From Giesbergeria sp. (lineage in GTDB: Bacteria; Pseudomonadota; Gammaproteobacteria; Burkholderiales; Burkholderiaceae_C): a stretch of DNA of 33,360 nt. The stretch is from positions 1 through 33,360 of the forward strand of contig NZ_JAQUCA010000028.1 in the NCBI RefSeq assembly GCF_028686475.1, written 5' to 3'. The notes below the pieces were generated by a model. The model worked only from the letters and a program-made list of their open reading frames with translations. It was not told where the DNA came from and did no database searches. The position numbers and the translations under genes were made by a program. Below, piece after piece: positions 5,871-15,292 of this stretch (within the stretch, counting starts at the first letter, position 1; every line of letters starts with the position of its first letter).

Positions 5871-8477
5871 ATGCGTATCGACAAGCTGACCACCAAATTC
5901 CAAGAAGCCCTGGCCGACGCCCAATCGCTGGCTTTGGGCCATGACAACGCCTACATCGAACCCACCCACCTGCTGCTGGCCTTGCTGCGCCAAGAAGACG
6001 GCCCGCGCGCCCTGCTAGAGCGTGCCGGGGCCAATCTGCCCGGTTTGCTCAAAGATGCCGAGGCCGCCGTCAAGCGCCTACCCCAAGTGCAAGGCCAAGA
6101 GCAAGTGCAGCCCAGCCCCGAATTGGGCCGGGTGCTGCAAGCCACCGAAAAAGAAGCCATCAAACGCGACGACAACTTCATCGCCAGTGAATTATTCCTG
6201 CTGGCCCTGACCGACAGCAAAGGCGAAGCCGCCCGCGTTGCCAAAGAGAACGGTTTAACGCGCAAAAGCCTAGAAGCCGCCATCAACGCCGTGCGCGGTG
6301 GCCAAAAAATGGACAGCCCCGAAGGCGAAGGCCAACGCGAAGCCCTGAAAAAATACTGCATTGACCTGACCGAACGCGCTCGCGCGGGCAAACTAGACCC
6401 CGTGATTGGCCGTGACGACGAAATCCGCCGCGCCATCCAAGTGCTACAACGGCGCACCAAAAACAACCCGGTACTGATTGGCGAGCCGGGCGTGGGCAAA
6501 ACCGCCATCGTCGAAGGGCTGGCACAGCGCATTGTGGCCGGTGAAGTGCCCGAATCGCTCAAAGGCAAACGGGTACTCAGTTTAGACATGGCGGCCCTGC
6601 TGGCCGGAGCCAAATTCCGGGGCGAATTTGAAGAACGCCTGAAAACCGTACTCAAAGAACTGGCCCAAGACGAAGGCCAAACCATCGTCTTTATTGACGA
6701 GCTGCACACAATGGTTGGCGCAGGCAAAGCCGAAGGCGCGATGGATGCGGGCAATATGCTCAAACCTGCCTTGGCGCGCGGCGAACTGCATTGCGTCGGT
6801 GCCACCACGCTGGACGAATACCGAAAATACATCGAAAAAGATGCGGCTTTGGAGCGGCGCTTCCAAAAAATATTGGTAGGAGAACCTACCGTAGAAGCCA
6901 CCATCGCCATTTTGCGCGGCCTGAAAGAGCGCTACGAAAAACACCACAACGTGGACATCACCGACCCGGCGATTGTCGCTGCCGCAGAATTGAGCCACCG
7001 CTACATCACCGACCGCTTCTTGCCCGACAAAGCGATTGATTTGATTGACGAAGCCGCCTCGAAAATCAAAATCGAGATGGACTCCAAACCCGAAGTCATG
7101 GACAAGCTAGACCGGCGCTTGATTCAATTGCAAATTGAGCGCGAAGCGGTGAAAAAAGAAAAGGACGAAGCCTCACTCAAGCGCTTAGATTTGATTGAAG
7201 AAGAAATTGGCACACTGCAAAAAGAAATTGCCGATTTGGATGAAATTTGGAAAATGGAAAAAGCCTTAGCGCAAGGCTCGGCCCATATCCGCGAAGAAAT
7301 CGATCAACTGCGTTTCCAAATTGAAGAACTCACGCGCAAAGGCGATTTCAACAAAGTCGCCGAACTGCAATATGGCAAACTGCCCGAGTTAGAGCGCAAA
7401 CTCAACGAAGCGCAGGCCAAAGAATCGGGCAAAGACGGTAGCCAAGCTGCGCCGCGCCTGCTACGTACCCAAGTGGGCGCAGAAGAAATCGCCGAAGTCG
7501 TCAGCCGCGCCACGGGCATTCCAGTAGCCAAAATGATGCAGGGCGAAAAAGACAAGCTGTTGCAGATGGAAACCAAGCTGCACGAGCGCGTGATTGGCCA
7601 AAACGAAGCCATTGCCGCCGTGGCCAATGCCATTCGCCGCTCACGCTCGGGTTTATCCGACCCCAACCGCCCCACCGGTTCTTTCTTGTTTCTTGGCCCC
7701 ACGGGTGTGGGTAAAACCGAACTCTGCAAAGCGCTGGCGGGTTTCTTGTTCGATAGCGAAGAGCATCTGGTACGCATCGACATGAGCGAGTTCATGGAAA
7801 AGCATTCAGTGGCCCGCTTGATTGGTGCGCCCCCCGGTTATGTGGGTTACGAAGAAGGCGGTTATCTGACCGAAGCCGTGCGCCGCAAACCTTACAGCGT
7901 TTTGTTATTGGACGAGGTAGAAAAAGCCCATCCCGATGTGTTCAATGTATTGCTGCAAGTATTGGACGATGGCCGCCTGACCGATGGCCAAGGCCGCACG
8001 GTAGATTTCAAAAATACCGTCATCGTCATGACCAGCAATATCGGCTCGCAAATGATTCAGGCGATGGTGGGCCAAGAGGCCGACGAGATTAAAGATGCGG
8101 TTTGGGGTGAGCTGAAAAACTACTTCCGCCCCGAGTTCCTCAACCGCATCGACGAAACCGTGGTATTCCACGGCCTGGATGCCCAACATATTGCTGCCAT
8201 TGCGCGCATCCAATTGCAATTGTTGCGGCAGCGGCTAGAACAAATGGACTTGACTTTGCAAGTCTCAGAGGCTGCCTTGGCCGAACTGGCCAAGGTGGGC
8301 TTTGACCCAGTGTTTGGTGCCCGTCCGCTCAAGCGTGCGATTCAGCAGCGCATCGAAAACCCGCTGTCCAAACTGCTGCTAGAAGGGCGCTTTGTGCCCA
8401 AGAGTACCATTGCCGTCGAGGTCAACCCGGCGCTAGAGCCTGGAGTATTCCGCTTCAGCAGCGCTGCACCGGTATAA
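5871..8477 (+). CDS. clpB: ATP-dependent disaggregase chaperone ClpB (Hsp100)
   Basis: A hexameric AAA+ machine that, with DnaK, pulls polypeptides out of aggregates after heat or other stress. The 868 residues hold every expected part. The N-terminal Clp-N repeats (about 1-145) are followed by the first AAA module with Walker A GEPGVGKT at 204-211 and Walker B VFIDELH. Next is a long charged coiled-coil middle domain (about 410-530). The second module has Walker A GPTGVGKT at 609-616, the pore loop GYVGYEEGG and Walker [11 protein letters not shown], and the C-terminal small domain is [11 protein letters not shown]. The ATG is fixed by GGAGG 8 bases upstream and by the family start MRIDKLT. 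It appears to be a single-gene unit under the promoter described. The next gene starts 94 bases downstream. Confidence 0.98.
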
Positions 8478-8571: not shown

Positions 8572-10137
8572 ATGTCGCATAAGCCGTTTACCGTGTCGCT
8601 CGTTTCTGTGGCCTTGCTCAGTGCCTGCGTCACCCCCAAAGAGCACCAAAATTGGAAAGAGCCCGAAGCCACGGTTGCCGTAGCGGCAGCCCCCAAAACC
8701 TCAGCCGTTAAAACCATTACCAACTTCTCGCCCGCCCTGCGCTGCATGGACGAGTTGTTCTTGGCTTACGGCAAAAACGGTATCGTTATCACCTCCACCG
8801 GCATCCCCGACGAAACCGGCAAGGTACGCACCGGCACCAAAGAAATGCTGATTACCGCCGTTGCCAAAATGACGGTAAAGAGCAATGCCTTTGAATTCAT
8901 TGATTTTCATGGCGGCGGTGATGATTTGGCACGCTTGTTTGATGCCAAAGGTTCCGAGCGGATGCGGATGCCAGACTATTACATCCGGGGTTCCATCACG
9001 CAAATGGACGACAACACCATTCGCAAGAGCAAAGGCGTAGGGTTTTTTACCCAGTTCCTAGACGGTAGCACCACCAAAGATGCCGCCTATGATTTGCTCA
9101 GTATGGACATGAGTATTGGTGATGCCAGCTCGCGCAAAATTTTGCCGCAAACCAGCACCTCCAACACCATGCTTATCACCAAGCAAGGCAACTCTGCCGA
9201 GCTGGGGGTGGGCAAACTGGGCAAAATTGGCCTGCAATTTAGCCTCGATTTCAGCCGCGCCGAGGGTCTGGGGGCCACCACGCGCACCCTGCTAGAGCTG
9301 GGCCTGATAGAAACACTGGGCAAATTTACCCAAGTGCCGTATTGGCGCTGCTTGGATGTGGATGTCACCAATCCGGTCATCCGAGAGCAAGCCCTCGAAA
9401 TTTACGACACCCTGACCGAAGCCGACAAAATCCTCTATGTGCAGCGCAAACTCGCTGGCAGCATGGCACGTTACAAAGGCCCCATCGATGGCCAAATGAA
9501 CCCCGCCCTCAAAGATGCCATCCTAGAATACCAAGCCCAAAATGGCTTGGTGGCCAATGGCAAGGTCAACTTTGACCTGTACGCCAACCTCATGGACGAT
9601 GTGCAAAACGTTTTGGCCTATGTTCCCAGCACGCCGGTTAGAGGCGCTGCTCCCGCCAGCGCACCCGCGCCCATGCCGGTCTCGCCCACTAGCAGCCCAG
9701 CGGCACCAGCTACCGCGCCTGTGTTCCGCGTCAACCTAGACAGCGACCGGGGTTCACGCCCCAGCTACAAAGTGGGCGACTTCCTGAATATGTCTTTATC
9801 GCTCACGGGCGATGGCACGGTGTATTGTTATTACGAAGACAGCAACCGCCAAGTGGCGCGCATCTTCCCCAACCAGTTTGCGGGCAACCCCACTTTGCGT
9901 GCTGGCAGCACTTTGCGGCTGCCCGCTGGTGGTTTTAAGATTCGTTTTGACCAAGCAGGCAAAGAGCGTGTCGCCTGTATTGGTGCCGACCGCGAGCAAG
10001 TGCTGCCCGGCAGCCTCAAAGGGGCTAAAGACTTAACCCCCTTGCCAGTGCATTCACTCGACGAAGTGGTACAACAATTCCGCCAGTCTAATCCGGCATC
10101 CACTGTCAGTTACGTCGATATTACCGTAGCCCGCTAG
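8572..10137 (+). CDS. CsgG/HfaB-like outer-membrane lipoprotein with peptidoglycan-binding domain and DUF4384
   Basis: Candidate export channel of the cluster. The chosen ATG gives a lipoprotein signal of 18 residues ending in the lipobox LLSAC. Upstream codons in the same frame would spoil this signal. Residues about 30-270 resemble CsgG/HfaB secretion lipoproteins: an N-terminal region with GTKEMLITAV, a YYIRGSITQMDDN segment, a stretch like transmembrane strands (SSRKILPQTSTSNTMLI), and the C-terminal helix ending LGKFTQVPYWRCL. Residues about 287-341 look like a PG_binding_1 domain (GPIDGQMNPALKDAI). A Pro/Ala/Ser linker (about 357-383) leads to a DUF4384-like domain (about 385-480, ending GKERVACIGA). 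CsgG forms the pore for curli subunits. The extra domains could fix the pore to the cell wall. Channel function is inferred from resemblance only. Confidence 0.75.
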   Translation: MSHKPFTVSLVSVALLSACVTPKEHQNWKEPEATVAVAAAPKTSAVKTITNFSPALRCMDELFLAYGKNGIVITSTGIPDETGKVRTGTKEMLITAVAKMTVKSNAFEFIDFHGGGDDLARLFDAKGSERMRMPDYYIRGSITQMDDNTIRKSKGVGFFTQFLDGSTTKDAAYDLLSMDMSIGDASSRKILPQTSTSNTMLITKQGNSAELGVGKLGKIGLQFSLDFSRAEGLGATTRTLLELGLIETLGKFTQVPYWRCLDVDVTNPVIREQALEIYDTLTEADKILYVQRKLAGSMARYKGPIDGQMNPALKDAILEYQAQNGLVANGKVNFDLYANLMDDVQNVLAYVPSTPVRGAAPASAPAPMPVSPTSSPAAPATAPVFRVNLDSDRGSRPSYKVGDFLNMSLSLTGDGTVYCYYEDSNRQVARIFPNQFAGNPTLRAGSTLRLPAGGFKIRFDQAGKERVACIGADREQVLPGSLKGAKDLTPLPVHSLDEVVQQFRQSNPASTVSYVDITVAR

Positions 10138-10147
10138 GCTCCAGACT

Positions 10148-10726
10148 ATGCCAAAAATTCCTACCATTGTCCGCAGTTGTCTTCTGGCCAGCTGGCTGGC
10201 AATGGCAGGAGCGCAGGCAGAATTGATTATCGGGCCAGAGCCGCCAACGCCGGGCGAATCGGCCAAATCGAAAGCCCAGCAGCAGCGCGAAAAAGCCGAG
10301 GCCATCTATCGGGGTCACTCTCCCAACATCATTATTGAGATGGACGAAGAAACCGAGGGCATCCTCAGTCCGCGCAGTGGTGCCCCAACACAAGAGCGGG
10401 CTTTTGAGCAACGCTGGCGCGCACGCATTCTCCAAGACAGCCCCAAACCCGTAGCGCCTGATTTACCTTTGGGGCCAGCGCCGCCCGAGTTACAAAATGC
10501 GCGTGATAAAGCCGCCCAACTGCGTGGGCGCGCGCGCAGCATGTACTACACCGGCACCGGCAATTGGCAAGACCTTGACTTGAGCCAGCGTGATAAAGAT
10601 GGCCTGCCGCTGGTGTATTGCCATAGCACCGACAACGTAGCAGGACGTATCGGCGATGGCACCACTTCTGGGAGCGTAGTGATACTAAATCGCAATGGGC
10701 AGCAAATAAAAGTGCGCTGCCGTTAA
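10148..10726 (+). CDS. Secreted protein of unknown function, second gene of the fibre-like cluster
   Basis: I do not recognise the family. The protein has 192 residues. A signal peptide (about 1-24) ends MAGAQA before ELIIGPEPP. The mature part is polar, and two segments resemble each other: residues about 34-54 (ESAKSKAQQQREKAEAIY) and about 117-139 (ELQNARDKAAQLRGRARSMYY). These may be two short helices that bind the same partner. The C-terminal 45 residues have a glycine-rich beta pattern with two cysteines, one in VYCHSTD and one in the terminal VRCR, likely a disulfide after export. It starts 10 bases after the CsgG-like gene, so the two are almost certainly cotranscribed. It may be an accessory factor in the position CsgE or CsgF hold in curli systems, but no similarity supports that. 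Confidence 0.7.
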   Translation: MPKIPTIVRSCLLASWLAMAGAQAELIIGPEPPTPGESAKSKAQQQREKAEAIYRGHSPNIIIEMDEETEGILSPRSGAPTQERAFEQRWRARILQDSPKPVAPDLPLGPAPPELQNARDKAAQLRGRARSMYYTGTGNWQDLDLSQRDKDGLPLVYCHSTDNVAGRIGDGTTSGSVVILNRNGQQIKVRCR

Positions 10727-10730
10727 AAAG

Positions 10731-10772
10731 ATTCAAAAAATTCAAAAAAACCGTCAACCAAAGCAACCAAAG
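10731..10772 (+). repeat. Two tandem 9-base direct repeats in the gap before the 10817 gene
   Basis: ATTCAAAAA is repeated head to tail at 10731-10739 and 10740-10748. CAACCAAAG is repeated at 10755-10763 and 10764-10772. They fill most of the 90-base gap between two secreted-protein genes. They could be regulator half-sites at 9-base spacing or slippage products. No clear promoter boxes were found beside them. Confidence 0.6.
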
Positions 10773-10816
10773 AGGCGTTGTTGCAGTAAAAATATCAAAC
10801 AAATGGGGGGTGTAGC

Positions 10817-11134
10817 GTGAAGAAGCTTTTCCTTGCTGGATTGGCCCTCTGCGCTGGCTGGGTCTCTGTGGTGCAAGCACAGGTAGCAGTCAATGTATCA
10901 GGGAGCAATGTCAGCGTGCAAACCGGCGGCAGCAATGGCTCAATGGCCAGCAACACTACGGCCACTTTAGGCCCCGATGTAGAAATGGAAGGGGTAGCCG
11001 TGATTAATGAGGAAGTCTTCATTGATGGCGTGAAAGTCCCCCACGGAAAAACCAGCTACTTTAGCAAAAAATCGGGTAAATCCTATACCATTCGGTGGGG
11101 TAAAAACGGCAACATAGCCGTTCAAGAAAAGTAA
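10817..11134 (+). CDS. Small secreted Gly/Ser/Asn-rich protein of the fibre-like cluster
   Basis: A 105-residue protein starting at GTG, with a run of six G at 10805-10810 as probable ribosome binding site. An ATG just upstream reads into a stop within five codons. The signal peptide ends VVQA (about residue 21). The mature N-terminus alternates polar and small residues (VNVSGSNVSVQTGGSNGSM), a pattern expected for beta strands. The C-terminal half reads VFIDGVKVPHGKTSYFSKK and onward, a compact beta-rich module. It is not the 37-residue repeat seen in its neighbours but shares its composition. It could be a minor fibre subunit or nucleator. Function is not known from the sequence. Confidence 0.7.
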   Translation: MKKLFLAGLALCAGWVSVVQAQVAVNVSGSNVSVQTGGSNGSMASNTTATLGPDVEMEGVAVINEEVFIDGVKVPHGKTSYFSKKSGKSYTIRWGKNGNIAVQEK

Positions 11135-11150
11135 ACAAGGGAGAGGCCCA

Positions 11151-12050
11151 GTGAACCATCCATTCAAACACTTCCAGCGAAAAATACGCCTTTGGGGCAG
11201 TGTTGGCCTGCTGTGGGCTGGTTTGCAAACGGCTTGGGCCATTCAGCCGGTCAGTGCCCCAGTAGCGCAAGTCTTAGAGGCACAATCACAAAGCCTTAAT
11301 TTGTGGCAATTGGCCGATAACCCCGAAGTCTTTATTTTTGATTTTCCGGGCTTGGCCTACCAAGGGCGCAGTTTTAACCGCATTACCCAGTTTACCGAAC
11401 AACAATTCAGCGAGCCTTACCCTCGGGTACTCAATAACCAAGAGTTAGCGCGCTATATTCAGGCTTCGCGCCGTACCCAAACCGATTTTGCCTTTGGACA
11501 CGATGTCTTGGTCTCTGAGTTGGTACAGTTTTTTAATTATGCTCTGCGTGATAAAGTAGAACTTTACCCCGAAGAGCTGGTTATTCGTGATTTTCTGTTA
11601 GAGCAAGGTTTAATCCGTTTTTGGCGTGGTTTTTATCAAGGCTTGCGCCCAGATGCCGTAGTGTTGGCAGTGCCTCAGGTACAAGCGCGCAAATCTGATG
11701 AACCTATGGTAACCGCCCAAGCCCGTGCTACCATTTTGTTGCACGAACTGGCCCACGCCGAGTATTATACCAATGTTCATTTTCGCAAATTTTGCCAACG
11801 CTTTTGGTACGAAATTCTACAACCCGAGCAGCGCGAGGCATTTAAGCGCTTTCTGGCTAATTTTAACTATGCAGTAGCCAACGAAGAGCTTCTCATCAAC
11901 GAGATGCAGGCTTACCTGATGTTCACGCCAGACCGCCATTCTTTCAGTGCGCGTAAACTGGGGGTTTCTGAAGAAGAACTGCAATCTATGCGTAATGCCT
12001 TTCGCAGCAAGGTGCCTCCCATTCCGCTGCCCATGCCAGGAGATATGTGA
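11151..12050 (+). CDS. Exported putative zinc metallopeptidase (HExxH protein)
   Basis: A 299-residue protein starting at GTG, preceded by GGGAGAGG. A signal peptide (about residues 1-30) ends QTAWA. The central motif HELAH at 198-202 in TILLHELAHAEYY is a zincin HExxH site (H198, E199, H202). About 45-50 residues later, NEELLINEMQAY offers glutamates (E245, E246, E251) that could be the third metal ligand, as in gluzincins. I do not recognise the subfamily. Its place between small secreted proteins, with a 1-base stop/start overlap to the next gene (TGATG), suggests it acts on cluster products: trimming subunits, removing misfolded ones, or opening the cell wall. Sampled GC is low: one 60-base line at 11521 counts to 40%. 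Peptidase activity is inferred from the motif. Confidence 0.72.
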   Translation: MNHPFKHFQRKIRLWGSVGLLWAGLQTAWAIQPVSAPVAQVLEAQSQSLNLWQLADNPEVFIFDFPGLAYQGRSFNRITQFTEQQFSEPYPRVLNNQELARYIQASRRTQTDFAFGHDVLVSELVQFFNYALRDKVELYPEELVIRDFLLEQGLIRFWRGFYQGLRPDAVVLAVPQVQARKSDEPMVTAQARATILLHELAHAEYYTNVHFRKFCQRFWYEILQPEQREAFKRFLANFNYAVANEELLINEMQAYLMFTPDRHSFSARKLGVSEEELQSMRNAFRSKVPPIPLPMPGDM

Positions 12051-12364
12051 TGCGAGTGAAGACACTTGGTATTTTATTGGGTACGGGTTTGCTGGCAACT
12101 TCTGCTGCCTCGGTTTGGGCGCAAGCCAACCAGCGTACTAGCATTCAGGGCAACACCCAAATCAATGTTAGCACGCAAAACATGACAGCCATTGCCACAG
12201 GCGAAAACAACGTAGCTAAAAACAGGATAGGTGTGATAAAAGGCGATAAACGCGGCGATACCAACATCAGCGTTGTTACCAAAGATGTGACCACCATTTC
12301 TAGCGGGCGTAATAAAAAAGCATGTACCAATATTGGAGGAATTGTCAGCGATGAATGCAAATAA
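12050..12364 (+). CDS. Divergent member of the 104-residue repeat family, with cysteines
   Basis: It has exactly 104 residues, like the three tandem proteins at 13375-14422, and the same plan: a signal peptide (to about residue 24, ending VWA) followed by two repeats. Repeat one holds SIQGNTQINVSTQN, then TAIATGENNVAKN, then GVIKG. Repeat two is degenerate (DTNISVVTKDV, ISSGRNKKACTNIGGI). The shared frame is xIQGNTxI, then AxxxGxxNxAxN, then GxIxG. Unlike the others it has two cysteines, in KACTN and at the end DECK. It starts at an ATG overlapping the stop of the peptidase gene, with AGGAG upstream. By curli logic it could be a nucleator or cap, since it is single-copy and divergent. That is inference. 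Confidence 0.75.
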   Translation: MRVKTLGILLGTGLLATSAASVWAQANQRTSIQGNTQINVSTQNMTAIATGENNVAKNRIGVIKGDKRGDTNISVVTKDVTTISSGRNKKACTNIGGIVSDECK

Positions 12365-12665
12365 ATACACCATCCGTGCCTTGCTCATCGCATCGGCATT
12401 GGCCTTGCCATTCAGTGCACAAGCCGTGCAGGGCTTAGATTCTTCCGGGCAAACCAAGGTCAACAAAGCACTGGCCGAGCGTTGGGTGCGACAAGACAAT
12501 ACACAGAAAAAAACACCCGCAGAAGAAAGGCGGGTCACCAATATCGGTAGCAGACGCGATGGCACCTGCAATGTGAATGTAGGCACAGCCCAACCCGATA
12601 GCCGTGGCCGGGCACCTAGAAACATTGTGGTTACCACCAAAGAAGTCGTCAACGTTTGCCGGTAA
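12351..12665 (+). CDS. Small secreted protein with two cysteines, fibre-like cluster
   Basis: A 104-residue protein from the ATG at 12351, which overlaps the end of the preceding gene by 14 bases. GGAGGA lies 10 bases upstream. The signal peptide ends PFSAQA (about residue 25). The C-terminal half has TNIGSRRDGTCNVNVGTA, then NIVVTTKEVVNVCR at the very end. The motif NIVVTTKEV recalls NISVVTKDV in the preceding protein, so this may be a strongly diverged relative of the repeat family in a different arrangement. Two cysteines may form a disulfide in the periplasm or outside. The ending of cysteine plus a basic residue is shared with the products at 10148 and 12050. Role unknown. Confidence 0.68.
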   Translation: MNANKYTIRALLIASALALPFSAQAVQGLDSSGQTKVNKALAERWVRQDNTQKKTPAEERRVTNIGSRRDGTCNVNVGTAQPDSRGRAPRNIVVTTKEVVNVCR

Positions 12666-12674
12666 AATTTGGGT

Positions 12675-13343
12675 ATGAAAAAATTTAATCATTTCACTGC
12701 TTGGTCGCGTGTGGCTGCACTGCTGTTGGGCAGTTTGGCTATCAGTACCGCCCATGCCCAAGGTAATTTTGAGGATGAAGAAAAATTGCGCGCCCTAGAG
12801 CGCGCCATGCAAACTTCGTCCGAGCCAGCGGCACAGCCTCAGCATAAACAGCAGCGGCGTACCCGTGCGATTGTGTTCGAGAATGAGCAAGAATCTGCCC
12901 CCATGCAGCAACAGCAACAGCAACCCAGCTATGGCAATGCGCCACAGCAGCCTAGCCGAGCTATGGCCATTATGGATTGTGCTGGTTTGCCCCCAGGGGT
13001 CAGAACCATCGGTGTCGATTTTGCTATCCAATTTAGAGTGGGTAGCGCGGTGGTTTCGCCCACTTCAGAGCGCACCCTTAACCAAATTGCCCGTATTCTG
13101 GCCCTATCGCCCGAGCGTTGCGTGATTGTGGAAGGCCACACCGATGCCACCGGCAATTACGAGCGCAACCTAGAACTTTCTCACGACCGCGCCAATTCGG
13201 TAGTTAATTTTATTTCTGACCGCAACGGAATCGATCGCCGCCGCTTGGTGCCCATAGGCAAAGGTTCTAGCGATCCTGTGCAAAATCTCGATGCACGTGA
13301 TCCCAAAAATCGCCGTGTAGTGTTCAAGGTAGTGACTGGTTAA
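12675..13343 (+). CDS. OmpA-like peptidoglycan-binding protein
   Basis: A 222-residue protein with a signal peptide ending STAHA (about residue 28) and no lipobox cysteine. A low-complexity, glutamine-rich linker follows (six Q in a row near residue 80). The OmpA C-terminal domain spans about 113-221: FRVGSAVVSPTS, VEGHTDATGNYE, LSHDRANSVVNFI, LVPIGKGSSDP, KNRRVVFKV. The two residues that hold diaminopimelate in OmpA domains are present, Asp157 in GHTD and Arg172 in SHDRA, at the standard spacing of 15. It therefore probably binds the cell wall. With no lipid anchor and no beta barrel it may bridge the wall to the CsgG-like protein or to the fibre subunits. The gap to the previous gene is 9 bases. 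Confidence 0.87.
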   Translation: MKKFNHFTAWSRVAALLLGSLAISTAHAQGNFEDEEKLRALERAMQTSSEPAAQPQHKQQRRTRAIVFENEQESAPMQQQQQQPSYGNAPQQPSRAMAIMDCAGLPPGVRTIGVDFAIQFRVGSAVVSPTSERTLNQIARILALSPERCVIVEGHTDATGNYERNLELSHDRANSVVNFISDRNGIDRRRLVPIGKGSSDPVQNLDARDPKNRRVVFKVVTG

Positions 13344-13374
13344 GTCGGTCAATTTTCTAATACGAGAGAAAATT

Positions 13375-13689
13375 ATGCGTTTAGTCTCTATCATGGTAGC
13401 TGCAACTTTGCTGTCTGCCCCTGCATTGGCCCAACAAATTCAGCGCAGTAGCAATCCCCAGGGCGTGCAAATTCAGGGCAACACCACTATTCAAGCAGAA
13501 AATCAAAATACTTCTGCGCTTGCGGTGGGGCAAGGCAACGACAGCAGAAATATCAGTGGTGCTATCAAAGGTGGCACCCAAATTCAGGGCAACACCGAAA
13601 TTCGTGCCAAACAAGTCAATTCTACGGCTGTCACCGTCGGCAAGGACAATAAAGCTTCTAACGAAGCGGGTGTGATTGGTGGCAAATAA
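13375..13689 (+). CDS. Repeat-built secreted protein 1 of 3 (candidate fibre subunit)
   Basis: A 104-residue protein with a signal peptide ending APALA (about residue 19), then a short QQIQRSSNPQG lead and two repeats of about 37 residues. The first begins VQIQGNTTIQAENQN and contains SALAVGQGNDSRN, ending GAIKGG. The second begins TQIQGNTEIRAKQVN and contains TAVTVGKDNKASN, ending GVIGGK. The G-x-x-N-x-A-x-N core with alternating small, polar and aliphatic residues resembles the strand-turn-strand repeats of curlins (S-x5-G-x-x-N-x-A), though it is not a canonical curlin repeat. It has no cysteine or tryptophan. It is the most divergent of the three tandem copies. Its own start region (CGAGAG before the ATG) differs from the 33-base segment shared by the other two. 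Fibre formation is inferred. Confidence 0.78.
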   Translation: MRLVSIMVAATLLSAPALAQQIQRSSNPQGVQIQGNTTIQAENQNTSALAVGQGNDSRNISGAIKGGTQIQGNTEIRAKQVNSTAVTVGKDNKASNEAGVIGGK

Positions 13690-13700
13690 TTCATTTTTTG

Positions 13701-14107
13701 TTAATGGTTCAGTTTTTTCACTAGGAGGATGGTATGCGTTTAATTTCTATGATGATTGCTGCTGTTGTAGTTTCTGCTCCAGCTTTTGCCCAAAAAACCC
13801 AACAAAGCAGCAACCCCCAAGGTGTGCAGATTCAGGGTAATACCAACATCCAAGCCGAGAACAAAAACGTCTCGGCGGTGGCAGTGGGTGAAGGCAACGA
13901 AGCCAGAAACACTACCGGTGCTATCAAGGGTGGTACCCAAATCCAAGGTAACACCAATATCAACGCCAAGCAAACCAATGCCAGCGCTGTCGCAGTGGGT
14001 AAAAATAACACTGCCGCTAACGAAGCTGGCGTGATTGGCGGTAAATAATTACAATTACAGTCATTAGTTACTGGTTAATGGTTCAATTTTTTCACTAGGA
14101 GTATGCT
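13701..14107 (+). repeat. Duplicated 33-base upstream segments of subunit genes 2 and 3
   Basis: The bases directly before the second and third subunit genes (13701-13733 and 14075-14107) match at 30 of 33 positions. Both start TTAATGGTTCA, continue with a run of T, TCACTAGGAG, and end at the ATG. AGGAG is the ribosome binding site in both. The unit duplicated in tandem was therefore gene plus leader, and the two genes keep the same translation signals. Confidence 0.85.
13734..14048 (+). CDS. Repeat-built secreted protein 2 of 3 (candidate fibre subunit)
   Basis: A 104-residue protein with a signal peptide ending APAFA, then two repeats of about 37 residues (VQIQGNTNIQAENKN... and TQIQGNTNINAKQTN...). 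It differs from the third copy at 7 of 104 residues by direct comparison, and from the first copy at many more. Within each repeat the constant positions are Q-I-Q-G-N-T, an asparagine before SAVAVG, the N-x-A-x-N pair and G-x-I-x-G-G, which suggests one turn or layer of a beta solenoid or amyloid stack per repeat. AGGAGG lies 6 bases ahead of the ATG. The gene is separated by about 45 bases from gene 1 and 59 bases from gene 3, with no terminator between. Confidence 0.8.
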   Translation: MRLISMMIAAVVVSAPAFAQKTQQSSNPQGVQIQGNTNIQAENKNVSAVAVGEGNEARNTTGAIKGGTQIQGNTNINAKQTNASAVAVGKNNTAANEAGVIGGK

Positions 14108-14422
14108 ATGCGTTTGATTTCTATGATGATTGCTGCTGTTGTGGTTTCTGCTCCCGCTTTTGCCCAACAATCCCAACAAAGCAGCAACCCCCAAGGTGTG
14201 CAGATTCAGGGCAACACCAACATCCAAGCCGAGAACAAGAACGTCTCGGCGGTGGCAGTGGGTGAAGGCAACGAAGCCAAAAACACCACCGGCGCTATCA
14301 AGGGTGGTACCCAAATCCAAGGTAACACCAATATCACCGCCAAGCAAAAAAATGCCAGCGCTGTAGCCGTGGGCAAAGACAACAAAGCTGCCAACGAAGC
14401 AGGCGTGATTGGCGGCAAGTAA
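14108..14422 (+). CDS. Repeat-built secreted protein 3 of 3 (candidate fibre subunit)
   Basis: A 104-residue near copy of the preceding protein. The signal peptide and first repeat are the same apart from three substitutions. The four changes in the second repeat swap N/T for D/K (NITAKQKN, GKDNKAAN). The substitutions fall on polar positions expected to face outward, while the Gly, Asn and Val core is unchanged, so selection seems to keep the fold. It is the last gene of the cluster, followed by a hairpin at 14433-14451 and a strong terminator at 14468-14504. As with the other copies, surface export through the CsgG-like protein is my inference from context. Confidence 0.8.
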   Translation: MRLISMMIAAVVVSAPAFAQQSQQSSNPQGVQIQGNTNIQAENKNVSAVAVGEGNEAKNTTGAIKGGTQIQGNTNITAKQKNASAVAVGKDNKAANEAGVIGGK

Positions 14423-14451: not shown

Positions 14452-14467
14452 CACCATAGCCACACCA

Positions 14468-14504
14468 CGGTGGGCCAGAAAATGATCTGGCCCACCGTTT
14501 TTTT
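14468..14504 (+). terminator. Strong Rho-independent terminator of the fibre-like cluster
   Basis: A 12-bp perfect stem, CGGTGGGCCAGA (14468-14479) with TCTGGCCCACCG (14486-14497), on a 6-base loop, followed directly by seven T (14498-14504). It lies 45 bases after the last subunit gene and just before the convergent diguanylate cyclase gene. There is no T-run on the minus side, so it terminates the plus strand only. Confidence 0.95.
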
Positions 14505-14521: not shown

Positions 14522-15292
14522 TTAGGCGCTGGGCCGTTCGTACAAACGCCAGCCATTGCGCCCCGCATTTTTGGCTTGGTACAAGGCGGCATCGGCGCAG
14601 GCAATCAGGCCATCGACTTGCTCGGCGTGGTCTGGAAACAGGGCAATCCCAATGCTGGTGCCAATATGGGCCACACCGGCGCTCAAGGCGAAGGGCTGCG
14701 CCAAATTATGAACCAGCCGTCCGGCCAGTGCTTGGGCATCGGCGGCAGTGAGCATATCGGGCAAGATGCACAAAAATTCATCGCCACCCAGCCGGGCTAC
14801 GGTATCTACGGCGCGCACGGCATCGCGCAAACGTTGCGACACTTGGCGCAATAGCTCATCCCCTGCGGCATGGCCCATGTTGTCGTTGACCCACTTGAAA
14901 CGGTCTAAATCCATATAAAACACGGCCAATGGCAGTTGGCTGCGCCGCGATTGCTCCATGCCTTGTTGTAGCCGGTCGCGGGCAATGGCGCGGTTGGCCA
15001 AACCCGTCAGGGGGTCGTAGTTGGCCAGCTCTAGCTCTTGCTTGGTGCGCTGGAGGTGGTCAATCGTGCATTGCAGCTCAAACTCCTTCACTTCATGCTG
15101 TACCACCAATTTGGCAAAGGCTTCGGCCAGCGCTGCCAGTTCGGGCGATTCTGGATGCTCTGAAGCCATGTCCAGCAACTCGGGCACGGCTTGCATATCC
15201 CCTTGGTGGGCGATGCGTTCGGCCACGGCCAGCAGTTCGGCCAGCAACAAGGCATGGGGGGCAGCAGGAGAGGAAGGCAGATCTGTGGGCAT
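14522..15292 (-). CDS. Diguanylate cyclase (GGDEF domain) with an inhibitory site
   Basis: Makes cyclic di-GMP from two GTP. The 256-residue protein has an N-terminal helical part (about 1-60), a probable coiled coil (about 60-90, ending RTKQELELANYDPLTGLANR) and a complete GGDEF domain. The catalytic GGDEF is intact at residues 169-173. The product-inhibition site RxxD (R160-D163, RAVD) stands at the standard five residues before it. DxxxFKxxND-type metal and substrate residues appear as MDLDRFKWVNDNMGH. There is no membrane segment or receiver domain, so what it senses is unclear. It follows ybiB by 51 bases on the same strand and is convergent with the fibre-like cluster. C-di-GMP commonly drives fibre and holdfast production, so a link is plausible but not shown. 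Confidence 0.95.
   Translation of the reverse strand: MPTDLPSSPAAPHALLLAELLAVAERIAHQGDMQAVPELLDMASEHPESPELAALAEAFAKLVVQHEVKEFELQCTIDHLQRTKQELELANYDPLTGLANRAIARDRLQQGMEQSRRSQLPLAVFYMDLDRFKWVNDNMGHAAGDELLRQVSQRLRDAVRAVDTVARLGGDEFLCILPDMLTAADAQALAGRLVHNLAQPFALSAGVAHIGTSIGIALFPDHAEQVDGLIACADAALYQAKNAGRNGWRLYERPSA

Follow-up and report, generated by a model that had tools for sequence, protein, structure and literature searches.

A ten-gene cluster of apparently exported proteins

We analysed a stretch of 33,360 nucleotides (nt) from Giesbergeria sp. (contig NZ_JAQUCA010000028.1; the window, below) and focus here on a cluster of ten genes, g1 to g10, at positions 8572-14422, which probably encodes a secretion and assembly system for a surface fibre. 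An initial annotation of this DNA had described ten co-directional, tightly spaced genes, all with apparent signal peptides, that end at one strong terminator. This layout stands: there are ten open reading frames on the + strand, separated from g1 to g10 by 10, 90, 16, -1, -14, 9, 31, 44 and 59 nt, and a Sec-type signal peptide is apparent, judged by eye, at the N-terminus of all ten products. None of the other terminator-like sites in the window, 14 in all, has as long a stem as the closing one; their total is no higher than in shuffled sequence (12.3, standard deviation 3.6).

8572..10137, + strand: g1, 521-residue lipoprotein-like predicted exporter with CsgG fold, C-terminal PG_binding_1 and DUF4384 domains
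10148..10726, + strand: g2, 192-residue exported protein (signal peptide by eye), no family
10817..11134, + strand: g3, 105-residue exported protein, C-terminal half conserved, no family
11151..12050, + strand: g4, 299-residue exported HExxH protein, putative metalloprotease, no family
12050..12364, + strand: g5, 104-residue repeat protein, cysteine pair on its last rung, proposed cap or nucleator
12351..12665, + strand: g6, 104-residue exported accessory protein, two invariant cysteines, not repetitive
12675..13343, + strand: g7, exported OmpA-like protein, proposed wall anchor
13375..13689, + strand: g8, 104-residue repeat subunit, 75% identical to g10
13734..14048, + strand: g9, 104-residue repeat subunit, 93% identical to g10
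14108..14422, + strand: g10, 104-residue repeat subunit
14467-14498, + strand: intrinsic terminator-like stem closing the cluster (13 pairs, 9 of them GC pairs, and a T-run)

Two genes (g3 and g4) start with GTG, and two starts are ambiguous: GTG 12047 or ATG 12050 for g5, TTG 12669 or ATG 12675 for g7. GC content is 0.52 in the cluster against 0.57 in the window. Pfam matches over the cut-off are confined to g1 (PG_binding_1, DUF4384) and g7 (OmpA); the other eight proteins have nothing over the cut-off in either Pfam or NCBIfam.

g1 has a predicted CsgG fold

The initial annotation had taken g1 for a CsgG-like lipoprotein. Its fold is almost certainly that of CsgG, to judge from the structural model: CsgG is the only fold at ranks 1-24 of a Foldseek search with the g1 model, and fold comparison places CsgG ahead of PelC by 4 Z units. 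Note that this likeness is established only through fold and profile comparison and is invisible to Pfam. g1 has no match to the CsgG family PF03783, which among 19 rows is matched once, at E 0.07, and the NCBIfam HfaB model NF037935 recognises g1 at E 0.0012 and 18 bits, far below its cut-off of 300 bits. (Elsewhere in the window's genome the sole PF03783 match is a 285-residue frame, L001 at G000:C54:90265-90762, with 20.1 bits against a cut-off of 20.8.) The lipoprotein part of the claim stands by eye only; a lipobox can also be read in the Giesbergeria relative, while in the Rhodocyclales rows read (e.g. L078, L079, L081) an ordinary-looking signal peptide takes its place.

8626..8628, + strand: Cys19 of the lipobox-like LSAC of g1, read by eye
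8710..9363, + strand: CsgG-fold region, about residues 47-264 (46-272 at its widest), from structural alignment ranges
8977..9123, + strand: long hairpin of strands 136-156 and 167-184 in the model, at the position of CsgG pore hairpin 1; tip below 50 in predicted local distance difference test (pLDDT)
9157..9249, + strand: strands 196-205, 213-218 and 221-226 in the model, at the position of CsgG pore hairpin 2
9436..9582, + strand: PG_binding_1 (PF01471, Pfam), residues 289-337
9763..9987, + strand: DUF4384 (PF14326, Pfam), residues 398-472

The pore-forming strands, whose absence the initial annotation would have counted against its reading, thus have modelled counterparts at both hairpin positions, and residues 218-226 are amphipathic. 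The DUF4384 region of the model resembles Ig-like beta-sandwiches.

The repeat proteins are predicted to be small beta-solenoids

Four G/N/Q-rich repeat proteins of 104 residues had been claimed, and g5, g8, g9 and g10 are indeed repeat proteins of that length, with the reservation that Gly, Asn and Gln make up 39-42% of the mature part in g8-g10 and only 27% in g5; g6 also has 104 residues and is not repetitive. Self-identity at a lag of 37 residues reaches 0.62 in g10 and 0.46 in g8 (next best lags, 0.24 and 0.18). The best lag is thus 37 in g8 and g10; it is 35 in g5 and 36 in Thiodiazotropha. An AlphaFold2 (AF2) model of g10, built from 48 rows, has an N-terminus of low confidence and a confident body, in which strands 37-44, 47-53 and 56-64, followed by 74-81, 84-90 and 93-101, form two rungs of three strands each. 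The predicted structure is a solenoid built from the repeats, with no cap.

14198-14410, + strand: predicted two-rung beta-solenoid of g10, period 37, residues 31-101 (AF2, pLDDT 92-95)

The solenoid reading is supported by proteins of 204 and 316 residues that adjoin g1 in two Thiodiazotropha metagenome-assembled genomes (MAGs) and a clam-symbiont MAG (L131, L132, L134), because these contain a 36-residue unit several times over. Against solved structures, Foldseek returned six weak matches to g10 (E 1.3-9.4), with FapC at ranks 1 and 6 (E 1.3 and 9.4) and CsgA at rank 2; these are not significant and at most suggestive. No repeat protein tested matched curlin.

The minor member, g5, is related to the other repeat proteins (40% identity over 75 residues) and stands apart in its cysteines: the last-rung pair is present in 16 of 16 g5-type relatives counted, whereas none of 30 g8-10-type relatives has any cysteine in its mature part. 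The counts exclude rows that fell below the score limits, including the broken g5 of L078. Outside the ten-gene form, the repeat protein read ends in a cysteine pair in L102, L103, L114, L125, L127 and L136 and lacks one in L129, L131, L132 and L134. Interrupted or run-on frames occur in relatives at L078:11794-12096 and L079:12946-14416 (g5 and terminal repeats) and at G379:C207:28381-29929 (g1), reflecting mutation or assembly error.

Repeat proteins and g1 travel together

Recurrence was assessed in named loci recruited by g1 (80 of 199 kept) and in a wider set of 118 g1 loci (the 80 plus 38 more), which includes near-duplicates and falls into 98 clusters at 90% identity. Matches to all ten window proteins are present in 16 of the 80 named loci (L074, which is Giesbergeria anulus ATCC 35958, L076-L085, L088, L089, L091, L092, L094), where they lie on one strand in the order g1-g2-g3-g4-repeat-g6-g7-repeat(s); L087 has the full set except a detectable g2. 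In six locus maps read by eye the flanking genes differ and the terminal repeat gene is present in one to four copies. In L095, from a Rhodospirillales MAG, relatives of g1, g4, g5, g7 and g8-10 are present but ordered differently.

Keeping in mind that the 118 loci were chosen for holding g1 and also supplied part of the starting repeat profile, we find a repeat protein in 32 of them with that profile, in 44 once it has been iterated and in 67 after three rounds. Reversed sequences gave zero matches in every round; this control addresses composition, and since iterated profiles can drift we quote 32 and 44 along with 67. Repeats as diverged as those of L054-L056 are found by iteration only. 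Every one of the 135 repeat reading frames is on the strand of g1, and a repeat protein and a g6 relative are both present in 65 of the 118 loci.

The initial annotation had also asked whether the repeat proteins are widespread without g1. For their close form they are not: among 369 genomes of the class it occurs in four and g1 (E 1e-20) in six, and all four repeat genomes hold g1, although one of these is the window's own, two come from a single genus, and in the fourth (G354) the matches are weaker and some 8 kb away from g1. These genome-wide counts scored a restricted number of candidates in each genome, with profiles that detect the close form only. Among 150 genomes of the window's family, the close form is confined to the window's genome and g1-type or DUF4384-type matches occur in 44; G141, the sole other species of the genus among the 150, has neither the close-form repeat nor a g1-type or DUF4384-type match.

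Several g1 loci are organised differently. L054, L055 and L061 share a neighbourhood of repeat protein(s), g6-like gene, distant g1, DUF2807 (head GIN), OmpA-like, extracytoplasmic function (ECF)-type sigma factor and caspase-like protein, which suggests a sister system with a sigma factor of its own (sigma and caspase domains are Pfam-confirmed in L055 only). Neither repeat protein nor g6 is detectable next to the diverged g1 paralogues of L046-L053, or in 19 Azospirillum loci (L097-L101, L104-L111, L113, L115, L116, L118, L124, L135), one of which, L099, has a DUF4399 protein directly upstream. L092, L095, L103 and L114 encode large WD40 or WD40-caspase proteins in the vicinity of g1; by protein group, group 19 is found in 9 and caspase-like group 3 in 34 of the 118 loci, and L095 encodes a caspase-DUF4384 protein.

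Accessory proteins

The HExxH protein and the OmpA-like wall-binding protein of the initial annotation are both borne out, as g4 and g7.

11742..11756, + strand: HELAH motif of g4, H198-H202
11901-11903, + strand: E251 of g4, candidate third ligand
13032-13301, + strand: OmpA domain of g7 (PF00691, Pfam, E 5.1e-19)

H198, E199, H202 and E251 of g4 are invariant across 19 aligned rows, and this pattern is that of an active HExxH...E zinc protease, the ligands being putative. Relatives of g4 are found in 18 of the 118 loci and relatives of g2 in 17, the latter always on the strand of g1 at a median distance of 1 nt. Both are rarer than g6 and g7. The g6 family, whose two cysteines are kept in 18 aligned rows, is present in 72 of the 118 loci; in the last two profile rounds all of its matches but one are counted on the strand of g1 (72 loci, 73 matches), and 41 of the 73 are no more than 150 nt upstream of it. 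For 64 of the 80 named loci the retrieved DNA includes a g7-like OmpA frame, which is on the opposite strand in five. Because of this recurrence, and of the strand and distance pattern of g6, the two proteins are the best candidates for core partners of g1. Between g3 and g4, where the window has just 16 nt, L078 (10426-10776) and L080 (10393-10740) carry an extra exported gene of about 116 residues and no family, whose group has a member in 14 of the 118 loci.

A putative CsgG-type fibre system and its alternatives

How might these proteins work together? We propose that all ten products leave the cytoplasm via Sec and that g1 forms an oligomeric pore of the CsgG type in the outer membrane, which its extra domains would tether to peptidoglycan, with g7 as a putative second wall anchor. 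The subunits g8-g10 would pass the pore unfolded, fold outside as two-rung solenoids with three strands per rung and no capping domain, and pile up, each rung against the next, to build a cross-beta fibre. The disulphide-capable last rung of g5 might make it a cap or nucleator, g6 could be a chaperone or gate replacing CsgE and CsgF, and g4 may act as a periplasmic metalloprotease in subunit maturation or clearance; these three roles are guesses. That the repeat proteins are the cargo of g1 we consider likely. That they form surface fibres, and that the cluster is a dedicated CsgG-type system for secreting and assembling a non-curlin fibre, is in our judgement probable, with somewhat less assurance.

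Two observations weigh against this proposal. First, the evidence for pore hairpins in g1 is thin: alternation scores of 3.83 and 5.27 compare with a maximum of 5.03 among controls, and the tip of the first hairpin is modelled with pLDDT below 50. Second, 44 of the 118 g1 loci lack both repeat protein and g6; these comprise 19 from Azospirillum, the eight diverged paralogues of L046-L053, several roseomonads and some short contigs.

One alternative is that the repeat proteins are exported via g1 yet remain small adhesins or a surface coat, anchoring polysaccharide in the manner of HfaA and HfaD, with no long fibre. The subunits do have only two rungs, and HfaB, the CsgG-like protein that g1 matches below threshold, is described as acting with HfaA and HfaD in holdfast anchoring (PMC6707917). 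However, none of the ten proteins matches a polysaccharide synthesis or export family, the NCBIfam scan lists no HfaA or HfaD match (the presence of such models in the library was not checked), and three similar cap-free copies, one to four in relatives, better fit a bulk polymer. We regard this scenario as unlikely. A little more doubtful still is a second one, in which g1, like PelC or FlgT, forms a peptidoglycan-bound ring in the periplasm without crossing the membrane, and the repeat proteins are periplasmic scaffold or stress proteins of the envelope. Here the lead of CsgG over PelC, its monopoly of the top 24 Foldseek ranks and the CsgG-like hairpins of the model all argue the other way.

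Could the cluster be an ordinary, strongly diverged curli operon, with curlin, CsgE and CsgF beyond recognition? The CsgG fold, the G/N/Q-rich repeats, the solenoid model and a variant subunit able to play CsgB would fit. The period of 35-37 residues and three strands per rung do not, curlin repeats measuring 23 +/- 5 residues according to Sleutel 2023. Nor do the curlin (PF07012), CsgF (PF10614) and CsgE (PF10627) models find anything in the window's genome, while the E. coli control was positive each time; the initial annotation had likewise not recognised these proteins in the cluster. We consider this explanation very improbable. Finally, that the genes form a chance run of unrelated function, for which one could cite only that no gene product has been characterised, is rejected by the recurrence of the same order in 16 of 80 named loci amid differing flanks in the six maps read.

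Overall, a protein with the predicted fold of the curli pore, together with small repeat proteins predicted to stack in the manner of fibre subunits and yet unlike curli, suggests that several bacterial groups have a surface-fibre system still to be described; the literature searched (a body without most subscription journals) yielded no description of the cluster. A wider version of this proposal is tentative, possible rather than probable: a functional-amyloid pathway that depends on CsgG and is separate from both curli and Fap. It would have a 36-37-residue three-strand-rung fold of its own, a cysteine-locked capping g5, a recurrent two-cysteine partner g6 and a wall-tied pore, would have spread among Proteobacteria by transfer, and would account for some of the unidentified amyloid that Accumulibacter and other sludge Betaproteobacteria produce.

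Origin and surroundings

In a tree of g1 (midpoint-rooted for drawing only), the window and Giesbergeria anulus (86% identical) fall inside a supported set of seven rows (100/99), the other five from Rhodocyclaceae, Azonexus and Accumulibacter genomes, and apart from the g1 of Variovorax (about 30% identical). This grouping suggests that the cluster was transferred into the window's lineage. Upstream of the cluster lies a gene (5871-8477) that we take from its sequence to be ClpB-like. The Giesbergeria relative also has a ClpB-like gene upstream, with one gene between, so that the site is probably common to both. Downstream, on the opposite strand, a GGDEF-motif gene (14522-15292) faces the cluster; a connection with cyclic di-GMP is possible, and no such gene was seen adjoining the cluster in the six relatives mapped.

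Why should such a system matter? A curli survey reports many CsgG matches outside curli loci, which it terms likely paralogs, and two curli systems only in Betaproteobacteria (PMC3521004). The cluster supplies candidate cargo for one such non-curli CsgG branch. If our proposal is true, solenoid amyloids of more than one architecture use CsgG pores, and the subunit, at about 70 residues and two rungs, offers structural studies and materials research a very small building block. Since it is also encoded in genomes of Accumulibacter and Azonexus, it is a candidate, open to testing, for a matrix protein in sludge granules; the curli detected in two recent studies were assigned there to Flavobacterium and Kaistella (PMC12019908, PMC12016536).

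Comparison with known systems

The two pore hairpins of CsgG are not known from PelC or from other periplasmic rings that share its fold, whereas the g1 model has hairpins. The Caulobacter holdfast anchor, in which HfaB is reported to act with HfaA and HfaD (PMC6707917), shares with the cluster a CsgG-like protein clustered with exported surface proteins, and HfaB itself is a sub-threshold match of g1. It differs in that g1 has extra domains and the ten proteins include no polysaccharide family. By the HfaB model the cluster is not a holdfast anchor, and of the curli or holdfast likeness drawn in the initial annotation the holdfast side comes down to the shared CsgG-like element.

The exporter of Pseudomonas Fap is the FapF barrel. 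FapC resembles the repeat proteins in its longer repeats, in forming one cross-beta layer per repeat and in its conserved Asn and Gln; the cluster repeats nonetheless have no significant similarity to it. Its rung is described as a Greek key of five strands, with linkers between repeats (PMC12392863).

Judged from its predicted proteins, the cluster is not a curli system by content, because the models of the three curli families have no match in the genome and the period is 37 rather than 23 +/- 5, although some curli systems are themselves reported to lack CsgE and CsgF (PMC3521004). g1 differs from CsgG in its PG-binding and DUF4384 domains, a rung has 37 residues and three strands rather than the strand-turn-strand of about 23 residues in curli, and the cluster has OmpA-like, HExxH and two-cysteine proteins of its own. 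What the two share is a CsgG-fold exporter, Sec-exported N/Q/G-rich repeat subunits predicted as beta-solenoids, and a related minor subunit, here g5. On paper, then, with its CsgG-fold exporter and cap-free solenoid subunits, the cluster resembles curli in its working principle.

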